Source: Nitrosospira sp. | Lineage (GTDB): Bacteria; Pseudomonadota; Gammaproteobacteria; Burkholderiales; Nitrosomonadaceae | Assembly: GCA_013450215.1 (NCBI GenBank) | Contig: JACDSH010000015.1 | Location: 107,481 to 158,101 of the forward strand | DNA length: 50,621 bases | Direction of reading: 5' to 3' | Part shown: positions 6,973 through 36,601 of the stretch, piece after piece | How positions within the stretch are numbered: position 1 is the first letter of the stretch | Layout of the letters: each line of letters starts with the position of its first letter | Position numbers and translations under genes: made by a program | Notes under the pieces: model-generated | Databases searched by the model: none | The model's input: the letters and a program-made list of their open reading frames with translations, nothing else | What the model was told of the DNA's origin: nothing

Positions 6973-7989
6973 ATGTCGGCGCTGAACCAGATACTCAAAA
7001 CTGATCAAAACTACCCTCCCGCGATCTTTCTGATGGGGCCGACCGCCAGCGGCAAAAGTAGTGTTGCCTTAGAAATCTCCCGCCATCTACCGGTGGAAAT
7101 CGTTAGCGTGGATTCAGCTCAGGTATACCGTCATATGGATATCGGTACCGCCAAACCTAATACCGAAACTCTGGCCGCCATACCTCACCACTTGATCGAC
7201 CTGATCGAGCCATACGAGCGTTATTCCGCAGGACAGTTCCGTGATGACGCGCTGCTCGCGATGGGCGAGATCACCAGGCGCGGAAATATCCCGCTTCTTG
7301 TTGGCGGGACTATGCTTTATTTTCGAGCACTGATGCATGGACTATCTGAATTACCCGCTGCAGATAGTGAGCTCCGCATGACTATCAGTAGCATGGCTGA
7401 AGATCTCGGTTGGCCTGCAATGCACCTTCAGCTTCAGCAGATCGACCCCGTCAGTGCCGCCAGGATTAAGTCGACTGATAGTCAGCGCATCCAGCGCGCA
7501 CTGGAGGTGTGTTACCTCGCCAAAAAACCAATGTCTGAGATCCTGACAAAGCCCAGATCTGTCGACTTACCCTATCAGACTATACATATCGCCCTAATTC
7601 CAAGTGAACGCGTGATGCTGCATCAGCGAATTTCACATCGCTTCGACGAGATGCTTAACCTTGGACTGATTGACGAAGTACGTTCTCTCCTTGATAAATT
7701 TGAATTTGATGCCGATACCCCTGCAATGCGATGTGTCGGTTACCGCCAAGTACGGATGTACCTGAATAAAGAAGTCAGCATGAATGAAATGCGGTCAATG
7801 GGAATAGCCGCCACCCGCCAACTGGCTAAACGCCAACTCACCTGGCTTCGTCCGATGCAAGGACTGCATGGGTTTGACTGCCTGTCTCAGGATCTTGCAC
7901 AACAAGTATCGACGTATCTGCAAGCGATCATTTTGGATAGGGCAGCAAACTTATGTTCGCGACAGCTACCGGGCTCATGTCTTAATTAA
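6973..7989 (+). CDS. miaA: tRNA dimethylallyltransferase MiaA
   Basis: MiaA adds the dimethylallyl group to A37 of tRNAs reading codons that begin with U. The product of 338 residues has the P-loop MGPTASGKSSVA (about 21-32), the substrate loop VSVDSAQVYRHMDIGTAKP, HHLIDLIEPYERYSAGQF, the LLVGGTMLYFRAL block and the C-terminal AMRCVGYRQV and TRQLAKRQLTWLR motifs that contact tRNA. It is slightly longer than the usual 300-320 residues owing to a C-terminal tail of about 25 residues without family signal. The ATG at 6973 lacks a clear Shine-Dalgarno sequence, but no better in-frame start exists. mutL and hfq, frequent neighbours, are absent here; the following gene is a BON-domain lipoprotein. 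Confidence 0.95.
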   Translation: MSALNQILKTDQNYPPAIFLMGPTASGKSSVALEISRHLPVEIVSVDSAQVYRHMDIGTAKPNTETLAAIPHHLIDLIEPYERYSAGQFRDDALLAMGEITRRGNIPLLVGGTMLYFRALMHGLSELPAADSELRMTISSMAEDLGWPAMHLQLQQIDPVSAARIKSTDSQRIQRALEVCYLAKKPMSEILTKPRSVDLPYQTIHIALIPSERVMLHQRISHRFDEMLNLGLIDEVRSLLDKFEFDADTPAMRCVGYRQVRMYLNKEVSMNEMRSMGIAATRQLAKRQLTWLRPMQGLHGFDCLSQDLAQQVSTYLQAIILDRAANLCSRQLPGSCLN

Positions 7990-8473: not shown

Positions 8474-10777
8474 ATGACTCTTTTTTCCCTGCTCCTGTTA
8501 CTGCCCGTCATCATCGGCACAGTTCTGCTTGTTCCGTCACTCCGGCGAGCGCTCGTTTCAAACCCTGTGCTCAAAATTTTCCGCAATATCCTACCCCAGG
8601 TCTCGCAGACCGAACAGGAGGCTCTAGATGCGGGTACCGTTTGGTGGGATGGAGACCTATTCAGCGGCAAGCCCGACTGGAATAAGCTCCTAGCCTACCC
8701 CAAGCCTCAACTGACGACCGAGGAGAGGAACTTCCTCGCCGGTCCGGTGGAGCAGTTGTGCGAGATGTTGGACGAGTGGAAGATCACTCGCGAACTTCAT
8801 GATCTGCCACCTGAAGTCTGGCAATTCATTAAGCAAAATGGTTTTTTCGGCATGATCATCCCGAGGCAATACGGCGGGCACGGATTTTCTGCGCTTGCCC
8901 ATTCGGAAGTGGTAATGAAGATCGGCTCTCGCAGCGGCACGGCGGCAGTAACAGTGATGGTGCCAAACTCACTTGGCCCAGCGGAACTCTTGCTGCATTA
9001 CGGTACCGAGGAACAAAAAAACCATTACCTACCCCGCTTAGCGAAGGGATTGGAGGTCCCCTGTTTCGCACTTACCGGCCCAAGTGCCGGGTCGGATGCC
9101 GGCTCAATCCCTGACTCAGGCACTGTCTGTCAGGGCGAATTCAATGGCCGCCAGGATGTCCTAGGAATGCGCGTCACCTGGGAAAAGCGCTACATCACAC
9201 TGGGCCCGGTTGCGACGCTGCTGGGATTGGCATTCAAGCTTTACGACCCGGATGGTCTGCTCGGCACCAAAAAAGATCTCGGCATTACACTAGCACTAAT
9301 CCCCACCAATACCCCGGGGGTCAATATCGGCCGACGCCATTTCCCGCTCGATGCTGCCTTTCAGAATGGCCCTAACTCTGGTCAGGATGTATTCATCCCG
9401 ATGGAATGGGTGATCGGCGGACTCGGTGGAGTCGGTATCGGTTGGCGAATGCTGATGAACTGCCTCGCTGCTGGTCGCTCGATTTCATTGCCCGCGACGG
9501 CTACTGGTGCCGCTAAACTAGCGGCCCTTACCAGCGGGGCGTATGGCCGGGTCAGGACCCAGTTTGGTATGCCCATCGGTCGTTTCGAGGGGGTTGAAGA
9601 GGCTCTCGCTCGTATTGGCGGAAATACGTACATGATGGATGCAGCTCGTGTGATGACAGCGGGCGCAGTCGATCTAGGGGAGAAACCCTCTGTCATCTCT
9701 GCCATCGTCAAGTACCATCTCACTGAGCGCAGCCGGCAGACCATTAATGATGCGATGGATGTGCACGGGGGCAAGGGCATCTGCATGGGTCCCAGCAATT
9801 ATCTCGCACGCACCTACCAGCAAACTCCTGTCAGCATAACGGTGGAGGGTGCAAATATCCTTACTCGCAGTATGATGATATTCGGGCAGGGGGCGATCCG
9901 CTGCCACCCCTATGTACTTAAGGAAATTCATGCGGCCAATGACAGCGATCTCGGCCGCGCTTCTCTGGAGTTTGACCAGACGCTGATGGCGCACCTCTCC
10001 TTCAGTGTTGGTAATAGCCTGAGATCACTATTTCATGGACTAACCGGCTCCTCTCTGGCAGGTGCGCCCCTCAATGTCGCTCCCGAGGTACGACATTACT
10101 ACCAACAACTGAGCCGACTGTCAGCTGCCTTTGCGCTGGCCGCAGATATCTCCATGCTCGCTCTGGGTGGGTCTCTCAAGCGCAAGGAAAAGCTCTCTGC
10201 CCGACTGGGCGATATTCTCAGCCTGCTATACCTGTGCTCAGCGACGCTGAAACGTTTCGAGGATGATGCCCGTCCAGCTTCCGATTTGCCGTTGCTTAAT
10301 TGGTCGATACAGGACGCACTTTATCATTTACAGCAAGCATTCGATGGCTTACTGAATAATTTTCCTAACCGGCTTGCGGCATGGGTGCTGCGGGCGCTGA
10401 TATTTCCACTGGGCAAAACGTACCCCCCTCCTGGCGATGACCTAGGTCACATGGTGGCGATGCTGATGCTGGAACCGAGTGACGCGCGTGACCGCCTAAC
10501 TGCAGGAATCTATATACCAAGCTCCTCAGATGAGCCAATAGGCATTTTGGAAAAGGCCCTTCGGTGCGCGACGCAATGTGAGATCACGGAGTCCAAGGTC
10601 CGTGCTGCAGTCAAGTCTGGCCTTATTTCCACGCAAGGTGATGAGAAGATTACTGAAGCACTGGAACTGGGCATTATCACTGCCATTGAGGCGGAGTCAT
10701 TAACAGAAATGAAGTCGCTACGCCGACATGTCATTATGGTGGATGACTTTCCATCAGACTTCGGTACGCAAAAATAA
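8474..10777 (+). CDS. fadE: Acyl-CoA dehydrogenase, FadE type
   Basis: FadE catalyses the first oxidation of the beta-oxidation cycle, acyl-CoA to trans-2-enoyl-CoA, using FAD. The 767-residue protein has an N-terminal membrane-anchor segment (FSLLLLLPVIIGTVLLVP, residues 4-21), as in E. coli FadE, then the acyl-CoA dehydrogenase fold: the N-terminal helical domain with GMIIPRQYGGHGFSALAHSEV, the beta domain with FALTGPSAGSDAGS, and the C-terminal domain with DAMDVHGGKGICMGPSNYL and TVEGANILTRSMMIFGQG. The extra C-terminal part, about 500-767, is the DUF1974 region specific to FadE. Length is slightly under the usual 800. A GGAG lies 13 bases upstream of ATG, a wide spacing. It is the first gene of a five-gene operon. 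Confidence 0.93.
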   Translation: MTLFSLLLLLPVIIGTVLLVPSLRRALVSNPVLKIFRNILPQVSQTEQEALDAGTVWWDGDLFSGKPDWNKLLAYPKPQLTTEERNFLAGPVEQLCEMLDEWKITRELHDLPPEVWQFIKQNGFFGMIIPRQYGGHGFSALAHSEVVMKIGSRSGTAAVTVMVPNSLGPAELLLHYGTEEQKNHYLPRLAKGLEVPCFALTGPSAGSDAGSIPDSGTVCQGEFNGRQDVLGMRVTWEKRYITLGPVATLLGLAFKLYDPDGLLGTKKDLGITLALIPTNTPGVNIGRRHFPLDAAFQNGPNSGQDVFIPMEWVIGGLGGVGIGWRMLMNCLAAGRSISLPATATGAAKLAALTSGAYGRVRTQFGMPIGRFEGVEEALARIGGNTYMMDAARVMTAGAVDLGEKPSVISAIVKYHLTERSRQTINDAMDVHGGKGICMGPSNYLARTYQQTPVSITVEGANILTRSMMIFGQGAIRCHPYVLKEIHAANDSDLGRASLEFDQTLMAHLSFSVGNSLRSLFHGLTGSSLAGAPLNVAPEVRHYYQQLSRLSAAFALAADISMLALGGSLKRKEKLSARLGDILSLLYLCSATLKRFEDDARPASDLPLLNWSIQDALYHLQQAFDGLLNNFPNRLAAWVLRALIFPLGKTYPPPGDDLGHMVAMLMLEPSDARDRLTAGIYIPSSSDEPIGILEKALRCATQCEITESKVRAAVKSGLISTQGDEKITEALELGIITAIEAESLTEMKSLRRHVIMVDDFPSDFGTQK

Positions 10778-13113: not shown

Positions 13114-15600
13114 TTGAGAAACAATAATTTCATCGTGCGTAAGGCTGCGGTGCTAGGTGCGGGCGTTATGGGGGCGCAGATTGCAGCGCACTTAGCCAAT
13201 GCTAATATCGAGACACTGCTATTCGAGCTCCCTAGTCAACAAGGGGATCCTAACGATAGCGTAATTAAGGCGGTTGAACGCCTGCGAAAACAAGAGCCCT
13301 CACCGCTGTCCACCACGACCAGAGCGGCCTGTATCCAGCCCGCCAATTACGGTGAGCATCTTGATCTGCTCAAGGATTGCGATATTGTGATCGAGGCCAT
13401 TGCTGAGCGCATGGATTGGAAAGCAGAGTTGTACGCCAAGGTTGCACCATACCTCAGTGAACACACGATCTTTGCCAGTAATACCTCTGGCCTCTCTATT
13501 AACCAGTTAGCCAGAGCGTTCCCCAAAAATCTTCGCCGTCGTTTTTGCGGAGTTCATTTTTTCAACCCACCCCGCTACATGCACCTGGTTGAATTGATTC
13601 CCTACGAAGATAGTGATGCTGCAATGCTAGATGATCTCGAAGCATTCCTCGTCACCTATCTTGGCAAGGGCGTAATCCGCGCCAAGGACACGCCCAACTT
13701 CATCGCGAACCGGGTAGGCATGTTCTCCATGCTCGCCACCATGCACCACGGCCGAAAATTTAATCTCAGCTTTGACCTGATTGATGCCTTGACCGGACCC
13801 CTTATCGGCCGTCCCAAGAGCGCAACCTTCCGTACTGCGGATGTAGTCGGGCTGGATACCCTTGCACATGTGATCAATACCATGCGCGACGGCCTTTCTG
13901 AAGACCCGTGGCACAGATACTTTACACCCCCAGATTGGCTGCAAGGATTAATCAACAATGGTTCGCTGGGACAAAAGAGCAAATGCGGGGTTTACCAGAA
14001 GGTGGGTAAAGAGATACACGTATTCGATCTCAACACGCGGACATATCGTCTTGCTACAGATGCTGTTAACGACGAGATCAAAGTGATTCTAAAGCTTAAA
14101 GACCCTGTCGAAAGATTCGCATTACTGCGCGCCAACGCACATCCTCAGGCTCAATTCCTGTGGGCGATTTATAGAGATTTATTTCATTACTGCGCTTTGC
14201 ATCTGACTGCTATCGCGGATAATGCTCGCGATCTAGATCTTGCTATACGGTGGGGATTTGGCTGGAAACTTGGGCCATTTGAAATATGGCAAGAGGCAGG
14301 TTGGAGCCAGATCGCGGGTTGGGTGAACGCGGATATCACCTCAGGTAACAGTATGAGTGATGCACCCTTGCCCAGCTGGGTGCTCGAACCGGATCGAGTT
14401 GGCGTGCATGATTCGCAGGGTTCATATGCTCCATCTTCCAATACTCTGCGCGCACGCCCAAGCCTCCCGGTCTACCGTCGGCAGCTATTTCCAGATCTAC
14501 TCCTTGGGGAGGGGGTGCAATACGGTACGACCATATTCGAGACTGATGCAATCCGTATGTGGCACACCGGCGATGACATTGCTATCGTTAGCTTCAAGAG
14601 CAAGATGCACACCATTGGAAATGATGTATTGGATGGGCTCCAGCATGCAATACAAGAAGCGGAATCTAATTGCCGCGCTCTGGTCATCTGGCAAACCGAG
14701 CCTCCATTCTCCGCAGGGGCCAACCTACAAAAGGCTACCGACCGCTTGAAAAGCGATAGCCCGCCTTCCACGCTGAGCCTGTTGGCCCGGAAAATTAAAA
14801 AAACAGCACAAGCTGCAGTTCTCAAGGCCGCACACAATCTTAATCTTGCCGATGCACTGATGGCCGGGAAACTCGCAGAGGTCGAATCGATGGTTGCCCA
14901 ATTTCAACAAACCTCACAAGATCTTAGATACTCGATGATCCCCACTGTGGCAGCTGTTGACGGGCTCGCGCTGGGTGGTGGTTGCGAATTTGTAATGCAC
15001 TGCGACCGTGCCGTCGCCACACTTGAGAGCTATATCGGACTGGTAGAAGTGGGCGTTGGCTTATTACCTGCAGGCGGTGGCTGCAAGGAACTCGCCCTGC
15101 GCGCAGCGCGGTCGGCGAATGATGGAGACCCCTTCCCGCTACTAAAAAATTATTTCCAAACAGTGGCCACTGCCCAAATGGCCAAGAGTGCTGAACAAGC
15201 TAAGGAACTTGGCTATCTACGCCCGGCTGATCTGGTGGTAATGAACCGGTTTGAGTTGCTCCATACCGCCAAGGCTCAGGCTATGGCTCTGTCGGAATCT
15301 GGTTATCGCCCTCCCTTGCAATATCGCAATATTCCGGTGGCAGGAAGTACCGGCATTGCTACCATCAAGGGCATGCTGATCAATATGTTAGAGGGTGGTT
15401 TCATCTCCGAACACGATTACCTGATCGGCAGCAAGGTCGCGCATGTTATGTGCGGTGGCGAGTTAACTCCCGGCAGCCTAGTAGACGAAGCCTGGTTCCT
15501 GGAATTGGAACGAACTGCATTTATTGAACTGCTCGCAACTGAAAAGACACAGGCCCGGGTGGAATATACGTTGAAAACGGGCAAACCCTTGCGAAACTAG
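13114..15600 (+). CDS. Bifunctional 3-hydroxyacyl-CoA dehydrogenase / enoyl-CoA hydratase, dehydrogenase domain first
   Basis: The 828-residue protein carries both middle steps of beta-oxidation, but in the reverse domain order to E. coli FadB. Residues 1-310 are the NAD-binding dehydrogenase (VLGAGVMGAQIAAHLANANI; then SNTSGLSINQLA and FCGVHFFNPPRYMHLVELIP with the catalytic His). A C-terminal dehydrogenase domain follows to about 430, and residues 470-800 are a crotonase domain with ALVIWQTEPPFSAGANLQ, ALGGGCEFVMHCDRAVA and GLVEVGVGLLPAGGGCKEL, including the oxyanion-hole glycines and both catalytic Glu candidates. The start is TTG 13114 behind a GGGGGGA ribosome-binding site. It functions with the thiolase 17 bp downstream. 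Confidence 0.92.
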   Translation: MRNNNFIVRKAAVLGAGVMGAQIAAHLANANIETLLFELPSQQGDPNDSVIKAVERLRKQEPSPLSTTTRAACIQPANYGEHLDLLKDCDIVIEAIAERMDWKAELYAKVAPYLSEHTIFASNTSGLSINQLARAFPKNLRRRFCGVHFFNPPRYMHLVELIPYEDSDAAMLDDLEAFLVTYLGKGVIRAKDTPNFIANRVGMFSMLATMHHGRKFNLSFDLIDALTGPLIGRPKSATFRTADVVGLDTLAHVINTMRDGLSEDPWHRYFTPPDWLQGLINNGSLGQKSKCGVYQKVGKEIHVFDLNTRTYRLATDAVNDEIKVILKLKDPVERFALLRANAHPQAQFLWAIYRDLFHYCALHLTAIADNARDLDLAIRWGFGWKLGPFEIWQEAGWSQIAGWVNADITSGNSMSDAPLPSWVLEPDRVGVHDSQGSYAPSSNTLRARPSLPVYRRQLFPDLLLGEGVQYGTTIFETDAIRMWHTGDDIAIVSFKSKMHTIGNDVLDGLQHAIQEAESNCRALVIWQTEPPFSAGANLQKATDRLKSDSPPSTLSLLARKIKKTAQAAVLKAAHNLNLADALMAGKLAEVESMVAQFQQTSQDLRYSMIPTVAAVDGLALGGGCEFVMHCDRAVATLESYIGLVEVGVGLLPAGGGCKELALRAARSANDGDPFPLLKNYFQTVATAQMAKSAEQAKELGYLRPADLVVMNRFELLHTAKAQAMALSESGYRPPLQYRNIPVAGSTGIATIKGMLINMLEGGFISEHDYLIGSKVAHVMCGGELTPGSLVDEAWFLELERTAFIELLATEKTQARVEYTLKTGKPLRN

Positions 15601-15617: not shown

Positions 15618-16820
15618 ATGGCCCAAAAACAGACTCAAGATGCTTACATCGTCGCCGCCGTACGTACCCCTGTCGGCAAAGCTCCGCGAGGAATGTTCAA
15701 GAATGTCCGACCGGATGATCTGCTGGTGCATGTGCTGAAGAGCGCGTTGGCTCAATGTCCTGGACTAGACCCATCCGCGGTTGATGACGTTATCGCTGGT
15801 TGCGCAATGCCCGAGGCAGAGCAGGGTATCAATGTCGCACGTGTGGCACTTCTCATGGCAGGGCTGCCCAACAATGTGCCTGGCATGACCGTCAACCGTT
15901 TCTGCGCTTCCGGGCTCCAGGCCGTTGCATTGGCCGCTGACCGCATCCGACTGGGTGAGGCCGATGTCATGGTCGGAGCCGGCACGGAGAGTATGAGTAT
16001 GGTTCCTATGATGGGCAACAAAATAGCCATGAATCCTGAAATATTTCTTCATAGTGAGAATGTCAGCATTGCTTATGGTATGGGCATGACTGGAGAAAAG
16101 GTGGCGCAGCGCTGGAAAATAAGCCGAGAATCCCAGGATGAGTTTGCCGTGACCAGCCATACTCGAGCTCTCGAGGCTATTTCGGCTGGCGAGTTTGAGC
16201 AAGAGATCACACCCTACATCATTGAGGAAAGAAGGCCCGATCTTTCCTCGCATGAGGTCCGAATCATGACCGCTATCAGGAATGCTGACGAAGGTCCTCG
16301 CCCCGGAACCAACCTAGAAGCACTCAGCAAACTGAAACCAGTATTTGCCGCCAAAGGCTCGGTCACTGCGGGTAACAGCTCTCAGATGTCTGACGGAGCG
16401 GGTGCTGTGATCGTAGTAAGCGAAGCCGCTTTAAGGCGATTCAACCTCACTCCGATTGGTCGCTTCTTAGGTTTTGCCGTGGCTGGCGTACCTCCCGAAA
16501 TTATGGGTGTTGGCCCGATCAAAGCGATACCTAAGGTTTTACAGCAGGTTGGACTAAGACAGGATGCTATTGACTGGATCGAGCTGAATGAAGCTTTTGC
16601 CGCGCAGAGCCTCGCGGTCATTGGCGATCTTGGCCTTGATCGGGCCAAGGTCAATCCCCTGGGCGGGGCTATCGCGCTAGGTCACCCTCTGGGTGCGACC
16701 GGAGCTATCCGTGTTGCTACCTTGCTTCACGGAATGCGTCGGCATAAACAGAAGTACGGTATGGTGACCATGTGCATTGGCACTGGGATGGGCGCAGCGG
16801 GAGTGTTCGAGGCCCTCTAA
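15618..16820 (+). CDS. fadA: Acetyl-CoA acyltransferase (3-ketoacyl-CoA thiolase)
   Basis: The thiolase ends each beta-oxidation round by cleaving 3-ketoacyl-CoA with CoA. The 400-residue protein has all family signatures: the nucleophilic Cys in VNRFCASGLQAVALAADRI (near residue 94), the NEAFAAQSLAVI motif with GLDRAKVNPLGGAIALGHPLGATGA containing the catalytic His near 352, and the second Cys in TMCIGTGMGAAGVFE near the C-terminus. ATG 15618 is preceded by GAGGAGA at a good distance; the GTG at 15600 overlaps the upstream stop and is less likely. It closes the operon and is convergent with the DUF3460 gene. Confidence 0.94.
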   Translation: MAQKQTQDAYIVAAVRTPVGKAPRGMFKNVRPDDLLVHVLKSALAQCPGLDPSAVDDVIAGCAMPEAEQGINVARVALLMAGLPNNVPGMTVNRFCASGLQAVALAADRIRLGEADVMVGAGTESMSMVPMMGNKIAMNPEIFLHSENVSIAYGMGMTGEKVAQRWKISRESQDEFAVTSHTRALEAISAGEFEQEITPYIIEERRPDLSSHEVRIMTAIRNADEGPRPGTNLEALSKLKPVFAAKGSVTAGNSSQMSDGAGAVIVVSEAALRRFNLTPIGRFLGFAVAGVPPEIMGVGPIKAIPKVLQQVGLRQDAIDWIELNEAFAAQSLAVIGDLGLDRAKVNPLGGAIALGHPLGATGAIRVATLLHGMRRHKQKYGMVTMCIGTGMGAAGVFEAL

Positions 16821-16826
16821 CCGAGG

Positions 16827-16845
16827 CTATTTCTGGGCGAAATAG
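16827..16845. terminator. Possible bidirectional hairpin between fadA and the DUF3460 gene
   Basis: Arms CTATTTC and GAAATAG with a five-base loop lie just after the fadA stop. On the minus strand they form the last codons of the DUF3460 gene. Convergent position favours a terminator, but no clear T-run follows on either strand, so support is weak. Confidence 0.3.
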
Positions 16846-17015
16846 ACATAGCCCGTCTGGGGCACGTTCGCCTCCTCAAATCTTTGGCGTTCAACCTTAT
16901 CCAGTTTCTTATCCCACCAAATGGCTCGAGCTTCTTTCTGCTCTTCAGCCAGTTGAGGATTTTTTGCAAATAGTTCGCGTATGAATTTAGTGTGCTCGGA
17001 TTCGTATAATTCCAT
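16827..17015 (-). CDS. DUF3460 family protein
   Basis: This 62-residue cytoplasmic protein belongs to the DUF3460 family, which I know as a small, charged protein of Betaproteobacteria. Recognisable are the start MELYESEHTKFIRELFAKNP, the central EEQKEARAIWWDKKLD and the end VPQTGYVYFAQK. It is predicted to be mostly helical and has no cysteines or membrane segment. Function is unknown. It lies convergent to the fatty-acid operon and downstream, after a gap of about 100 bp, of the spermidine-synthase-like gene on the same strand. Its value here is mainly taxonomic. Confidence 0.85.
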   Translation of the reverse strand: MELYESEHTKFIRELFAKNPQLAEEQKEARAIWWDKKLDKVERQRFEEANVPQTGYVYFAQK

Positions 17016-17117
17016 GGTCTACTTTACTCGTCTCGTCGATATTAAGGAACTTTACCATAACCAGCTCCTATCTGCATGATGCGGATTGAACAGTTGGCAA
17101 TCTGAGCAAAAAACAGA

Positions 17118-17897
17118 TCAGATCTCTAGATACCCGCCGCCATGTGGATTATATTTACGTAGTCCCAATATGAACTTGGAGAATGGAAGAGCGAATTCAA
17201 TTTCTAGATTTTCTGCACGCCGTCTTAATTCCTCCCACGCTAATTTACCAGGGCTGTGCTTTAGTGCAAAAACAATCTGATTGCCGCGAACTTCCGTCAT
17301 CAGGATTGCCACATGACCGTTGAAACTATGTTCGATTCGTCGCATATACTCATCTCGCCCCTTATCTCTACTGAGCAGATTCACCACGAGAACTCCATTT
17401 CTGTTAAGAGATTCGCGTGCTCGGTTATAGAAATCCTGACTACAAAGCGTCCCCGCCTGACAACCATCGTCAAAACCGTCGATCATTAATACATCTGCAG
17501 TTGCAGGATTCCTCGCAATATATTCACTCCCCTCCGCCATCACCACCTGCAGACGTTCATTATCGTTAGGTAGGGAGAAATAGCTGCGGGCGGTAGAGAT
17601 GACCTGCGGATTGATCTCTACCACAGTGGTTTTTGCTTGTGGCATCCGCTTATGCACAAACTTCGCTAATGAACCGCCACCCAGACCGATCATCACAATA
17701 TGGATTGGGTTAGGATGAAAAAGTAGAAATCCCATCATGCAACGTGTGTAGGCCAACTCCAGTTCATTAGGAGCGGTTAGCCGCATTGCACTTTGAACCA
17801 TGCTACTGCCAAGATGTAGCGCACGCACCCCATCTTTTTCGCTCATCTCGATGCCGGCCTCGTTATTTTTAGTTCGCCACTTAGAAAATTGGGGCAT
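17118..17897 (-). CDS. Spermidine-synthase-like methyltransferase-fold protein
   Basis: The 259-residue protein has the Rossmann fold of spermidine synthases: IVMIGLGGGSLAKFVHKRMP (motif I), TTVVEINPQVISTARSYF (motif II with the ribose-binding Glu), and ADVLMIDGFDDG followed by GVLVVNLLS. True aminopropyltransferases have GGGDG in motif I and an Asp-Tyr pair in the active site; here motif I reads GGGSL, so the general-base Asp pattern is altered, and the N-terminal beta-hairpin domain is short. It is therefore more likely a related protein of unknown activity than SpeE. The start at 17897 is provisional, since an internal ATG at residue 18 is also possible. No speD or speA is adjacent. Confidence 0.75.
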   Translation of the reverse strand: MPQFSKWRTKNNEAGIEMSEKDGVRALHLGSSMVQSAMRLTAPNELELAYTRCMMGFLLFHPNPIHIVMIGLGGGSLAKFVHKRMPQAKTTVVEINPQVISTARSYFSLPNDNERLQVVMAEGSEYIARNPATADVLMIDGFDDGCQAGTLCSQDFYNRARESLNRNGVLVVNLLSRDKGRDEYMRRIEHSFNGHVAILMTEVRGNQIVFALKHSPGKLAWEELRRRAENLEIEFALPFSKFILGLRKYNPHGGGYLEI

Positions 17898-18043
17898 CAG
17901 CCTTGGCTCCGCAGGTTTATATCTGGCATTGCAGTCACCCGAAAATGGGCCGTTTGGTTCTTTACATTGCGATGCGACAGGATCATAGTCGTCATTAATA
18001 TAGCTCCCCAGAATTCCCCTGGATTATTTCGGAGGAGGGCTTC

Positions 18044-18532
18044 ATGAAAAAATCTATTCTGCTCATCGCTATCCTGTTAACAGGCTGCGCAGGTATCAAC
18101 ACTGTCAAAGACAAGCCACAGCTCTATAACGGCAAGTTTGATGGTGTTCATACTCGTCTTTCTCATTGCATTGTTAATAAACTTCGTTCTGATTCCCGAT
18201 GGGTTATTAATAGCCAGCAGTTTAAAATGTGGGAGTACCCTGACATTGCCGCATCAGAAGTTTATGCTTACGGGCTGCATGCTCTACCGGAAATGTTTGC
18301 TCGCATTTCGCCCTTGAACCCAGACGCAGTTTTTGATAACTCGCCCCCGCAGCCGGTAATCCGCACATATGCAGATGGTCCGTATGTGGGTCCTGAATAT
18401 TCATTTACTCTTCTACTAAAGCAGGTCGATAACTCCAGCGTAGCCGCCATCCTTAAAGGAGAGAGGTATGAAGGACGTGTCGCGTGGGAAGGTTTACTGA
18501 AGTGTGCTTTGGACCTTAACATTCATGAATAG
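18044..18532 (+). CDS. Small lipoprotein of unknown function
   Basis: A 162-residue protein with a classic lipoprotein signal: MKKS, hydrophobic LLIAILL, and lipobox LTGC with the modified Cys at residue 15. The mature part has two further cysteines (SHCIVNKL and LLKCALDL), spaced as in a possible disulfide. It has an SDSRWVINSQQF region and no domain I recognise. A strong GGAGGAGGG lies just upstream of the ATG. It is divergent from the spermidine-synthase-like gene and is the last gene before the tRNA-Arg repeat. It is probably an envelope protein of the local core genome rather than part of the element that follows, because it lies outside the repeats. Confidence 0.7.
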   Translation: MKKSILLIAILLTGCAGINTVKDKPQLYNGKFDGVHTRLSHCIVNKLRSDSRWVINSQQFKMWEYPDIAASEVYAYGLHALPEMFARISPLNPDAVFDNSPPQPVIRTYADGPYVGPEYSFTLLLKQVDNSSVAAILKGERYEGRVAWEGLLKCALDLNIHE

Positions 18533-18607
18533 CTCTTTCTGTTAAATGTGATCTGTTTATTTAGACACTAACAAATAGTCAGACAATTGCTTAACCCATT
18601 GATTTTA

Positions 18608-18641
18608 TGGTGCCCTGAACACGAATCGAACGTGTGACCTA
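18608..18641 (-). repeat. Direct repeat: displaced copy of the tRNA-Arg 3' end (att-like)
   Basis: These 34 bases are identical to 19498-19531, the last part of the tRNA-Arg gene including the encoded CCA, T arm and variable region, and are in the same orientation. Such a copy is what site-specific integration into a tRNA 3' end leaves at the distal end of an element. Upstream identity stops at once (A versus T at 18607/19497). Confidence 0.8.
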
Positions 18642-18672
18642 ACCCTTAAGAACGGCAAGCTCTCGCTATAAC
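18608..18672 (-). pseudogene. tRNA-like remnant next to the repeat
   Basis: Beyond the 34 identical bases, similarity to tRNA-Arg(CCU) continues weakly through the anticodon arm and part of the D arm to about 18663, then is lost. No 5' acceptor strand is present and the anticodon stem has mismatches, so this cannot be a functional tRNA. By alignment the anticodon position would read CUU. It is either a decayed tRNA or the tRNA-mimicking arm of the element's own attachment site. Confidence 0.6.
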
Positions 18673-18817
18673 CCTTTGATCAATATATGTATTTTTCAAA
18701 AGCGGCATAGTAACTTGCTCTAATTTCAGCATAAAAGTCCCCTTCAGAACTACCGACTAAGGATGCTTTTTATACCCGTCGAAGTGAAGTTTACATCCAT
18801 CCAAGCAAAGGAACTAG

Positions 18818-19441
18818 ATGACAACCATTACAGTACAAGGTGACCTATATGAAATGAACTTCTTTGAAATCGGTATGGACGAGTTCCTAATATTGACTGG
18901 AAGGATTACTGAAGATGAGGAGGCTGGGCGGGAGGCTTATCGGCGTACCCACCAACTGACCCTTCCACGAAGGTTTGATGATGAAGTTAGAAATACAGAG
19001 TTATGGAGTGAACTAGTAGAGGACAAACTGATAGGGGACTCTCGAATCAACGGATTCTCATATGACGAGAGTGGACCTCGTTTATATATTGAGGTTGATG
19101 GTGAGGATCTTACAGCAAAGGAAGTATTGAATCTTCCAGTCCATAACTTCGAAGCAGCAGCATTGAGTCGTATTGTTACATCTAAATTAAAACCCGAAGA
19201 TGAGACCTACACTCTTTTCTTTGAGAGTTGGAATAAAGGTTCTTACACTCTTGAGATGGACGAGGAGTATGACCCAACCAAACTAGGTTTATCCATTGAA
19301 AATCAGACTTTACCGGATGGTTCTATAAGGTCAGTAGTCAACCCCACTTATGCTGGTGAGGACTTTGAGTTTAATGGTAGTGATAATAAGTGCTACGGGA
19401 TATACATAGAAACACCAGACGGTGAGCGACACAAACTCTAA
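18818..19441 (+). CDS. Acidic protein of unknown function, cargo of the tRNA-Arg element
   Basis: A 207-residue protein I cannot assign to a family. It has 44 Asp/Glu against 20 Lys/Arg, giving a strong negative charge spread through the chain, one Cys near the C-terminus, no signal peptide and no membrane helix. Predicted character is mixed alpha/beta: an N-terminal ITVQGDLYEMNFFEIGMD, a central GPRLYIEVDGEDLTAKEVL, and C-terminal beta-like stretches ending TPDGERHKL. AAGGA five bases before ATG is a good ribosome-binding site. AGA, AGG, ATA and CTA codons are frequent, unlike neighbouring genes, which suggests transfer. Small acidic phage proteins include DNA mimics and anti-restriction factors; that is only a hypothesis here. 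Confidence 0.75.
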   Translation: MTTITVQGDLYEMNFFEIGMDEFLILTGRITEDEEAGREAYRRTHQLTLPRRFDDEVRNTELWSELVEDKLIGDSRINGFSYDESGPRLYIEVDGEDLTAKEVLNLPVHNFEAAALSRIVTSKLKPEDETYTLFFESWNKGSYTLEMDEEYDPTKLGLSIENQTLPDGSIRSVVNPTYAGEDFEFNGSDNKCYGIYIETPDGERHKL

Positions 19442-19497
19442 ACTATACCGCTTTCATTTTCTAATTTATCTATAACTTATTGTTTACAGGATGTATT

Positions 19498-19531
19498 TGG
19501 TGCCCTGAACACGAATCGAACGTGTGACCTA
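19498..19531 (-). repeat. Direct repeat: att-like core within tRNA-Arg(CCU)
   Basis: The right-hand copy of the 34-base repeat, forming the 3' half of the functional tRNA. See the mini element for the interpretation. Confidence 0.8.
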
Positions 19532-19573
19532 CCCCTTAGGAGGGGGTTGCTCTATCCACTGAGCTACCAGGGC
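19498..19573 (-). tRNA. tRNA-Arg (anticodon CCU)
   Basis: The minus strand folds into a complete cloverleaf: acceptor GCCCTGG paired with TCAGGGC (one G-U), a D arm GCTC/GAGC, an anticodon arm ACCCC-CTCCTAA-GGGGT with anticodon CCT, a T arm with the TTCGATT loop, discriminator A and an encoded CCA. It is 76 bases including CCA. tRNA-Arg(CCU) reads AGG. Its 3' end is duplicated at 18608-18641. A TAAAAT at 19583-19588 on the minus strand could be its -10 element. Confidence 0.96.
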
Positions 19574-35353: not shown

Positions 35354-36601
35354 TCAGTTACCGTAGACAGGGAATTTCTCACACATCATCTTTGCCTCCT
35401 GTGCTACGCGTGTTAGCACATTTGAATCGGTGGGCGCATCCAAAACATCCGCAATTAAATTCGCCAATTTTTCGGCCTCAATTTCTTTAAAGCCTCGTGT
35501 CGTCATCGCCGGCGAACCAATACGAATACCGCTGGTAACAAAAGGTTTTTGTGGATCATTAGGTATCGCGTTCTTATTAACTGTGATATGCGCAAGCCCC
35601 AACGACTCCTCAGCCTGTTTACCTGTAATATTCTTTGCTTGAAGATCCAGCAGAAACATATGACAGTCTGTACGTCCGGAGACTATGCGTAAGCCCCGTC
35701 TCTGTAATACTTTTGCCATCACCCGGGCATTGTCGATCACCTGTTCCTGATAATCCTTGAACTCCTTGGTCGCCGCCTCTTTGAATGCCACCGCCTTGGC
35801 GGCTATCACGTGCATCAGAGGCCCCCCTTGAGTTTGTGGGAAAATTGCCGAGTTGAGCGCTTTCTCGTACTCTGGTTTTGCCATGATGATGCCGCCACGC
35901 GGGCCGCGTAGTGTTTTATGCGTTGTACTGGTGACAAAGTCTGCGATCCCAACGGGGTTAGGATAAAATCCTGCCGCTACTAGTCCGGCATAGTGTGCCA
36001 TATCTACAAATAGATAAGCCCCAACGCTATCGGCAATCTTTCTAAAACGGTTCCAATCTATTACTAGCGCATAGGCTGAAGCGCCTGCAACAATCATCTT
36101 TGGTTTATGTTCGTGTGCCAACCTCTCGACCGCATCGTAATCCAGCTCCTCATGGGAATTGAGACCATATGCGATCGAGTTAAAAATTTTACCACTGAAG
36201 TTTACTGACGCCCCGTGAGTCAAGTGCCCCCCGTCCGCAAGGGACATGCCAAGGAGCGTATCACCCGGCTTTAGTGCAGAAAGATAGACCGCTGCATTAG
36301 CTTGTGAGCCTGAGTGTGGCTGGACATTGACATACTCCGCATTGAATAAATTTCTCACCCGGTCTATTGCAAGTTGTTCCACCTGATCCACATACTCGCA
36401 GCCCCCGTAGTATCGTTTTCCAGGGTAGCCCTCGGCGTACTTGTTGGTCAGAACTGAACCCTGAGCCTGCATTACCGCTGGGCTCGCATAATTCTCTGAT
36501 GCAATCAGCTCAATGTGATCTTCTTGACGCTGAATCTCCCCCTTGATTGCTTGCCATAAATCTGGATCCATGTTTTCTATGGTTTTTTTTGCAGACCACA
36601 T
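35354..36601 (-). CDS. glyA: Serine hydroxymethyltransferase GlyA
   Basis: GlyA converts serine and tetrahydrofolate to glycine and methylene-tetrahydrofolate with PLP. The 415-residue enzyme has [38 protein letters not shown], the [13 protein letters not shown] phosphate-binding turn, [14 protein letters not shown], and the PLP Lys in [15 protein letters not shown], with normal C-terminal length. The start used has AAGGA about 12 bases upstream; an ATG ten codons in is possible. It is 95 bp downstream of gyrB in map order but is transcribed in the same direction. Confidence 0.96.

Follow-up and report, generated by a model that had tools for sequence, protein, structure and literature searches.

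An 890-bp unit with one gene and no recombinase is inserted at the 3' end of an intact tRNA-Arg(CCU) gene in the 50,621-nt stretch of Nitrosospira sp. DNA analysed here (the window). We interpret this unit, with good confidence, as a non-autonomous, att-bounded mini-element (a CIME-like 'hitcher') that was integrated site-specifically at the tRNA end. Rather than representing a new kind of mobile element, it is probably a known kind in a very small form that depends on a helper. The features of the locus are listed in Table 1.

Table 1. Features of the tRNA-Arg(CCU) locus in the window
Feature	Position	Strand	Basis or remark
Lipoprotein-like chromosomal gene, 162 aa, flanking, outside the element	18044..18532	+	DNA matched in G004, G005 and G002
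Inserted unit, 890 bp	18608..19497		Absent from G004
Distal attachment copy, 34 nt exact; similar, non-identical to 18663	18608..18641	+	At the meeting point of flank and tRNA in G004
Non-coding inner arm beside the distal copy, 176 bp	18642..18817		Tested for integrase remnant and RNA fold
Cargo gene, 207 aa, pI 4.3, convergent with the tRNA	18818..19441	+	ORF call; no known family
Arm from cargo stop to tRNA 3' end, 56 bp, holds TAACTTATTG	19442..19497		Motif recurs outside the tRNA end of relatives
tRNA-Arg(CCU), intact; provides the tRNA-side attachment copy in its 3' half	19498..19573	-	ARAGORN; Rfam RF00005; 76/76 identical to the empty-site tRNA of G004

Boundaries and composition of the 890-bp unit

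An earlier note, made from the letters of the window alone, had described a direct repeat of the tRNA 3' end, and the two copies indeed agree at every position (18608-18641 and 19498-19531; 34/34). The chance expectation for an exact 34-nt pair in 50.6 kb is about 6e-12. The copies are spaced 890 bp start to start; the interval 18608-19531 takes in both of them, whereas the inserted unit alone measures 890 bp. Similarity between the copies continues past the exact block, to 56 nt at 88%, and all 7 mismatches are confined to the innermost 22 nt (p of about 7e-4 under an even spread). The tRNA gene encodes its CCA end, at 19498 (ARAGORN), and both the tDNA and the displaced 3' fragment are correctly oriented, which fits integration at a tRNA 3' end, as the earlier note had proposed. 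ARAGORN also called a minus-strand tRNA-Thr(CGT) at 13259-13350, within an 828-aa ORF (13114-15600); this call is probably false.

Between the repeat copies lies a single coding-like ORF, the cargo gene of Table 1, and comparison in all frames with two integrases from the tRNA-Arg(CCU) loci of relatives revealed no integrase fragment in the 890 bp; the description of the unit as carrying one gene and no recombinase thus held. Neither a remnant of the two tested integrases nor an unusual RNA fold was found in the inner arm beside the distal copy, and promoter and terminator scans of the whole unit returned nothing clearly exceeding shuffles. The composition of the unit is foreign, with a GC content of 40.8% compared with 49.7% for the window. 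GC content of the cargo gene by codon position is 0.52/0.36/0.38, and its GC3 (0.375) is set against values of 0.54-0.55 for bcp and alaS.

Empty and occupied sites within the genus

An empty site, which the earlier note had named as the check on its reading, is present in a genome of the same genus, G004. There, the left flank (window 16503-18607) is 94% identical and runs unbroken into the tRNA, and this flank meets the intact tRNA exactly where the repeat starts in the window. The empty site therefore shows a precise insertion rather than a local duplication, although, with one such genome, it would fit ancestral absence and precise loss equally. A tandem duplication of the tRNA end followed by gene gain through ordinary recombination, with no site-specific recombinase involved, would accommodate a distal copy that is imperfect past 34 nt. 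We nevertheless consider it highly improbable: the exact empty site largely refutes it, the repeat has the orientation and extent that integration at a tRNA 3' end would produce, and relatives show the same signature together with integrases.

Within one genus, the interval between the lipoprotein gene and tRNA-Arg thus ranges from empty (G004) to about 16 kb of inserted DNA (G001), with the 890 bp of the window in between. In G005, the same interval holds a different single gene (L033, 6835-7365), the 177-aa product of which has a weak PD-(D/E)XK match (E 1e-4, under the curated cut-off); no distal repeat copy was found at this locus and the tRNA does not encode CCA. The larger islands that the note had also asked for occur at this tRNA in relatives, and they bear integrases. 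A 339-aa tyrosine integrase adjoins the tRNA end in G003, and in G001 a lipoprotein gene like that of the window is followed by a 5.2-kb integrase element and then by another element, about 10 kb long. The converse outcome, with all relatives carrying the cargo gene, did not occur, the gene being absent from the other family genomes searched.

The about 10-kb element of G001 (L092, C9:14000-33000) encodes an integrase, a TrwC-type relaxase, a cytosine methylase and a NotI-like endonuclease. It interrupts tRNA-Arg(CCU) in the anticodon loop, where the shared core is only about 9 bp, so that the halves lie on the reverse strand of L092 at 6999-7040 and 17763-17801 and the gene is not restored; a group I intron was considered and not found. 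The element carries its own, different tRNA-Arg(CCU) (L092, 3817-3891, plus strand). It resembles tRNA-dependent lysogeny (PMC10865867), but has a relaxase. On the same contig (L036, G001:C9), two copies of the 5' half of tRNA-Arg(CCU), 100% and 90% identical to the host type, occupy the reverse strand at 8558-8596 and 8763-8801, about 205 bp apart, and the stretches adjoining the two copies resemble each other; they gave no Rfam match.

Elements at the tRNA-Arg(CCU) end across the family

The tRNA-end pattern was detected in 77 of 125 family genomes, many of which carry two or three copies. Apart from the window, 18 same-contig repeat pairs, compiled by hand from this survey of draft assemblies, are spaced 4.6-42 kb apart, and the 890-bp unit is the smallest among the repeat-bounded pairs of the family. 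Most of the pairs examined carry tyrosine integrases, of several lineages, which adjoin the tRNA-side or distal end of the islands in G003, G012, G001 and others. At least three integrase groups occur at this tRNA in relatives: the G003-type enzymes are 73-98% identical among six loci, the G012-type enzymes are 46-88% identical among the relatives compared, and the remaining ones share 20-33% identity with these two types. In G059, three copies of the tRNA-Arg(CCU) 3' end are found on one contig (C17; L105 69500-77500 and a copy at 35954), apparently a tandem array of elements of about 34.5 and 5.8 kb.

The TAACTTATTG motif in the tRNA-side arm of the unit occurs, with at most 2 mismatches, in 26 of 70 distinct arms of 45 nt that lie just beyond the tRNA end, compared with a mean of 4.5 and a maximum of 11 in shuffled arms. 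In the window, its distance from the tRNA exceeds the usual one by about ten bases, as it does in L045 and L105, the integrases of which are 84-88% identical; the shared spacing is suggestive only.

We give about an even chance to a deletion remnant, a sub-case of the mini-element reading in which a larger integrase-bearing island would have been reduced to its last gene and both attachment copies, leaving a unit that is inert unless a new integrase arrives. Larger islands are common at the same tRNA, decay to CIMEs is a described route (PMC5704250), and the tRNA-side arm holds the recurrent motif of this site. Conversely, the 890 bp show no trace of the two tested integrases and no DNA similarity to the islands of relatives that were compared, and the ORF is intact.

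The cargo gene and its distant relative

The ATG of the cargo gene is preceded by a ribosome-binding-like AAAGGA. The protein gave no match up to E 1 in Pfam, PHROGs, PADLOC and NCBIfam, and no relative in two contig collections (genome_contigs and viral_contigs), phages or plasmids. About 1,700 genome scans, covering overlapping sets of relatives and of order, class and phylum genomes, yielded one credible relative, in G186, a member of another family of the same order (E 2.7e-6 in one genome; 25% identity over 148 aa). The Smith-Waterman score of the pair is 109, against a mean of 30 and a maximum of 60 for shuffles. As far as these sequence searches reach, the cargo gene is nearly an orphan.

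The G186 gene encodes 175 aa and is located downstream of tRNA-Arg(CCU) at a distance of 21 bp, in convergent orientation and beside a cysM-like gene; by a rough estimate, about one gene in a thousand would adjoin this tRNA by chance. A distal repeat copy was not found at this locus. In the family of G186, the same interval is nearly empty in two genomes, while two others have a rhodanese-like gene there and another two a protease-like gene (both named by eye from the sequences); no other genome among the 26 of that family contains a credible match to the G186 gene. The position of the G186 gene at the same tRNA end, in the same convergent orientation, suggests that the cargo gene travels with the tRNA-Arg(CCU) site.

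Several other leads were discarded. A match in G774 is an OmpH/Skp-like chaperone by sequence and neighbours, and represents a chance coiled-coil similarity; a match in G333 covers 44 residues of a 51-residue frame with no tRNA nearby and was taken as chance. PDB matches all had E > 0.2 and differed between query forms, and the 'immunity protein' lead (4q7o) disappeared with a two-sequence profile. A DNA-mimic reading of the acidic cargo protein (charge -24) was dropped, the G186 relative being near neutral (-3). Structure prediction from the single sequence was poor (pLDDT 40.7). The cargo is probably a soluble protein, and elements at tRNA-Arg(CCU) have probably picked it up on more than one occasion; as a low-confidence guess, it would be an accessory protein, soluble and of benefit to a host or competing element.

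The other sub-case of the mini-element reading, possible if rather doubtful, is that the 890-bp unit is itself mobile, a dedicated one-gene satellite moved in trans by integrases that tRNA-Arg(CCU) elements, resident or incoming, would supply. It would account for a complete ORF between two attachment copies, for the distant G186 relative, which stands alone at the same tRNA and in the same orientation, and for a TAACTTATTG spacing near that of L045 and L105, two elements with related integrases. Set against it are the single known copy of the unit, the lack of a distal repeat in G186, an arm similarity that is modest (z 4.6) and the best of many comparisons, and the absence of either junction from viral contigs. 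A broader version, in which the window unit and the G186 gene are members of a family of such satellites (an att site and an orphan gene in less than 1 kb, dedicated to tRNA-Arg(CCU), recombinase-free and moved across bacterial families by integrases that belong to unrelated users of the same tRNA), appears unlikely.

Source of the recombinase and proposed mechanism

The genome to which the window belongs (1.6 Mb, 59 contigs, 99.8% complete) encodes five tyrosine recombinases. Two of them are 303-304 aa long, a length that would be consistent with XerC/XerD, and the other three, of phage or island type, measure 410-424 aa and are found on contigs C19, C32 and C50. None of these three is close to the integrases of relatives at this tRNA, the best identity being 22-23%. 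A search across the same genome found no third copy of the tRNA-Arg(CCU) end, and viral contigs contain neither junction of the unit nor the 27-nt tRNA end as an exact match.

For the mini-element reading, we propose that a tyrosine integrase acting at this tRNA recombined the chromosomal tRNA with an attP that bore a copy of its 3' end, which would regenerate the tRNA at one edge and displace the 34-nt copy to the other. Since no recombinase is on board, the enzyme would have been lost by deletion or would have come from a different element, perhaps one that was once a tandem neighbour; any present mobility of the unit is hypothetical. Tandem islands like those of G059, with its three copies, and of G001 offer a route by which an integrase-less unit may be left behind.

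The distal copies of relatives' islands are identical to the tRNA through the anticodon loop (...TACCCCTTAGGAG), whereas that of the window is not. Because its tRNA identity ends before the anticodon stem, unlike in these islands, the crossover probably took place inside the 34-nt block, on the T-arm/acceptor side. Since the distal copy departs from the tRNA sequence in its inner part, the unit may by now be fixed at this site.

Comparison with known systems

CIMEs (cis-mobilizable elements) keep attL and attR, are devoid of integration and transfer genes, arise by decay of ICEs or IMEs, and are mobilised by a neighbouring element or along with it (PMC5704250). The window unit likewise appears to retain both attachment copies, judging from the exact 34-nt repeat and the empty site of G004; its single ORF, without a profile match, leaves it free of integration and transfer genes, and it sits in a tRNA 3' end that hosts tandem elements. 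It differs from a typical CIME in consisting of 890 bp and one gene with no trace of an ancestral ICE or IME.

The nearest described parallel is provided by the integrase-less ssrA islands of Dehalococcoides. Islands at this site are bounded by repeats at the end of an RNA gene, some lack an integrase, and the authors regarded them as possible cis-mobilizable elements (PMC3146451). As in the window, repeats of the RNA end enclose DNA without an integration module where other strains have one; in contrast, the target is tmRNA, the helper is a serine recombinase, and the cargo includes reductive dehalogenase genes. The tRNA islands of the Islander catalogue are similar in that the tDNA and a displaced tDNA fragment mark their exact ends, but the catalogue requires an internal integrase and a length of at least 2 kb (PMC4383910), and the window unit has no tyrosine integrase and measures 890 bp. 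Units of this kind are therefore excluded from it by design.

Implications

Integrase-less att-bounded elements are already known. Sub-kilobase units are invisible to at least one standard tRNA-island catalogue, through its combined integrase and 2-kb rule. The window unit has clean bounds, an empty sister site and an orphan gene that is seen again at the same tRNA in another family; these features make the minimal size of site-specific elements, and the riding of lone genes on the integrases of others, directly testable.
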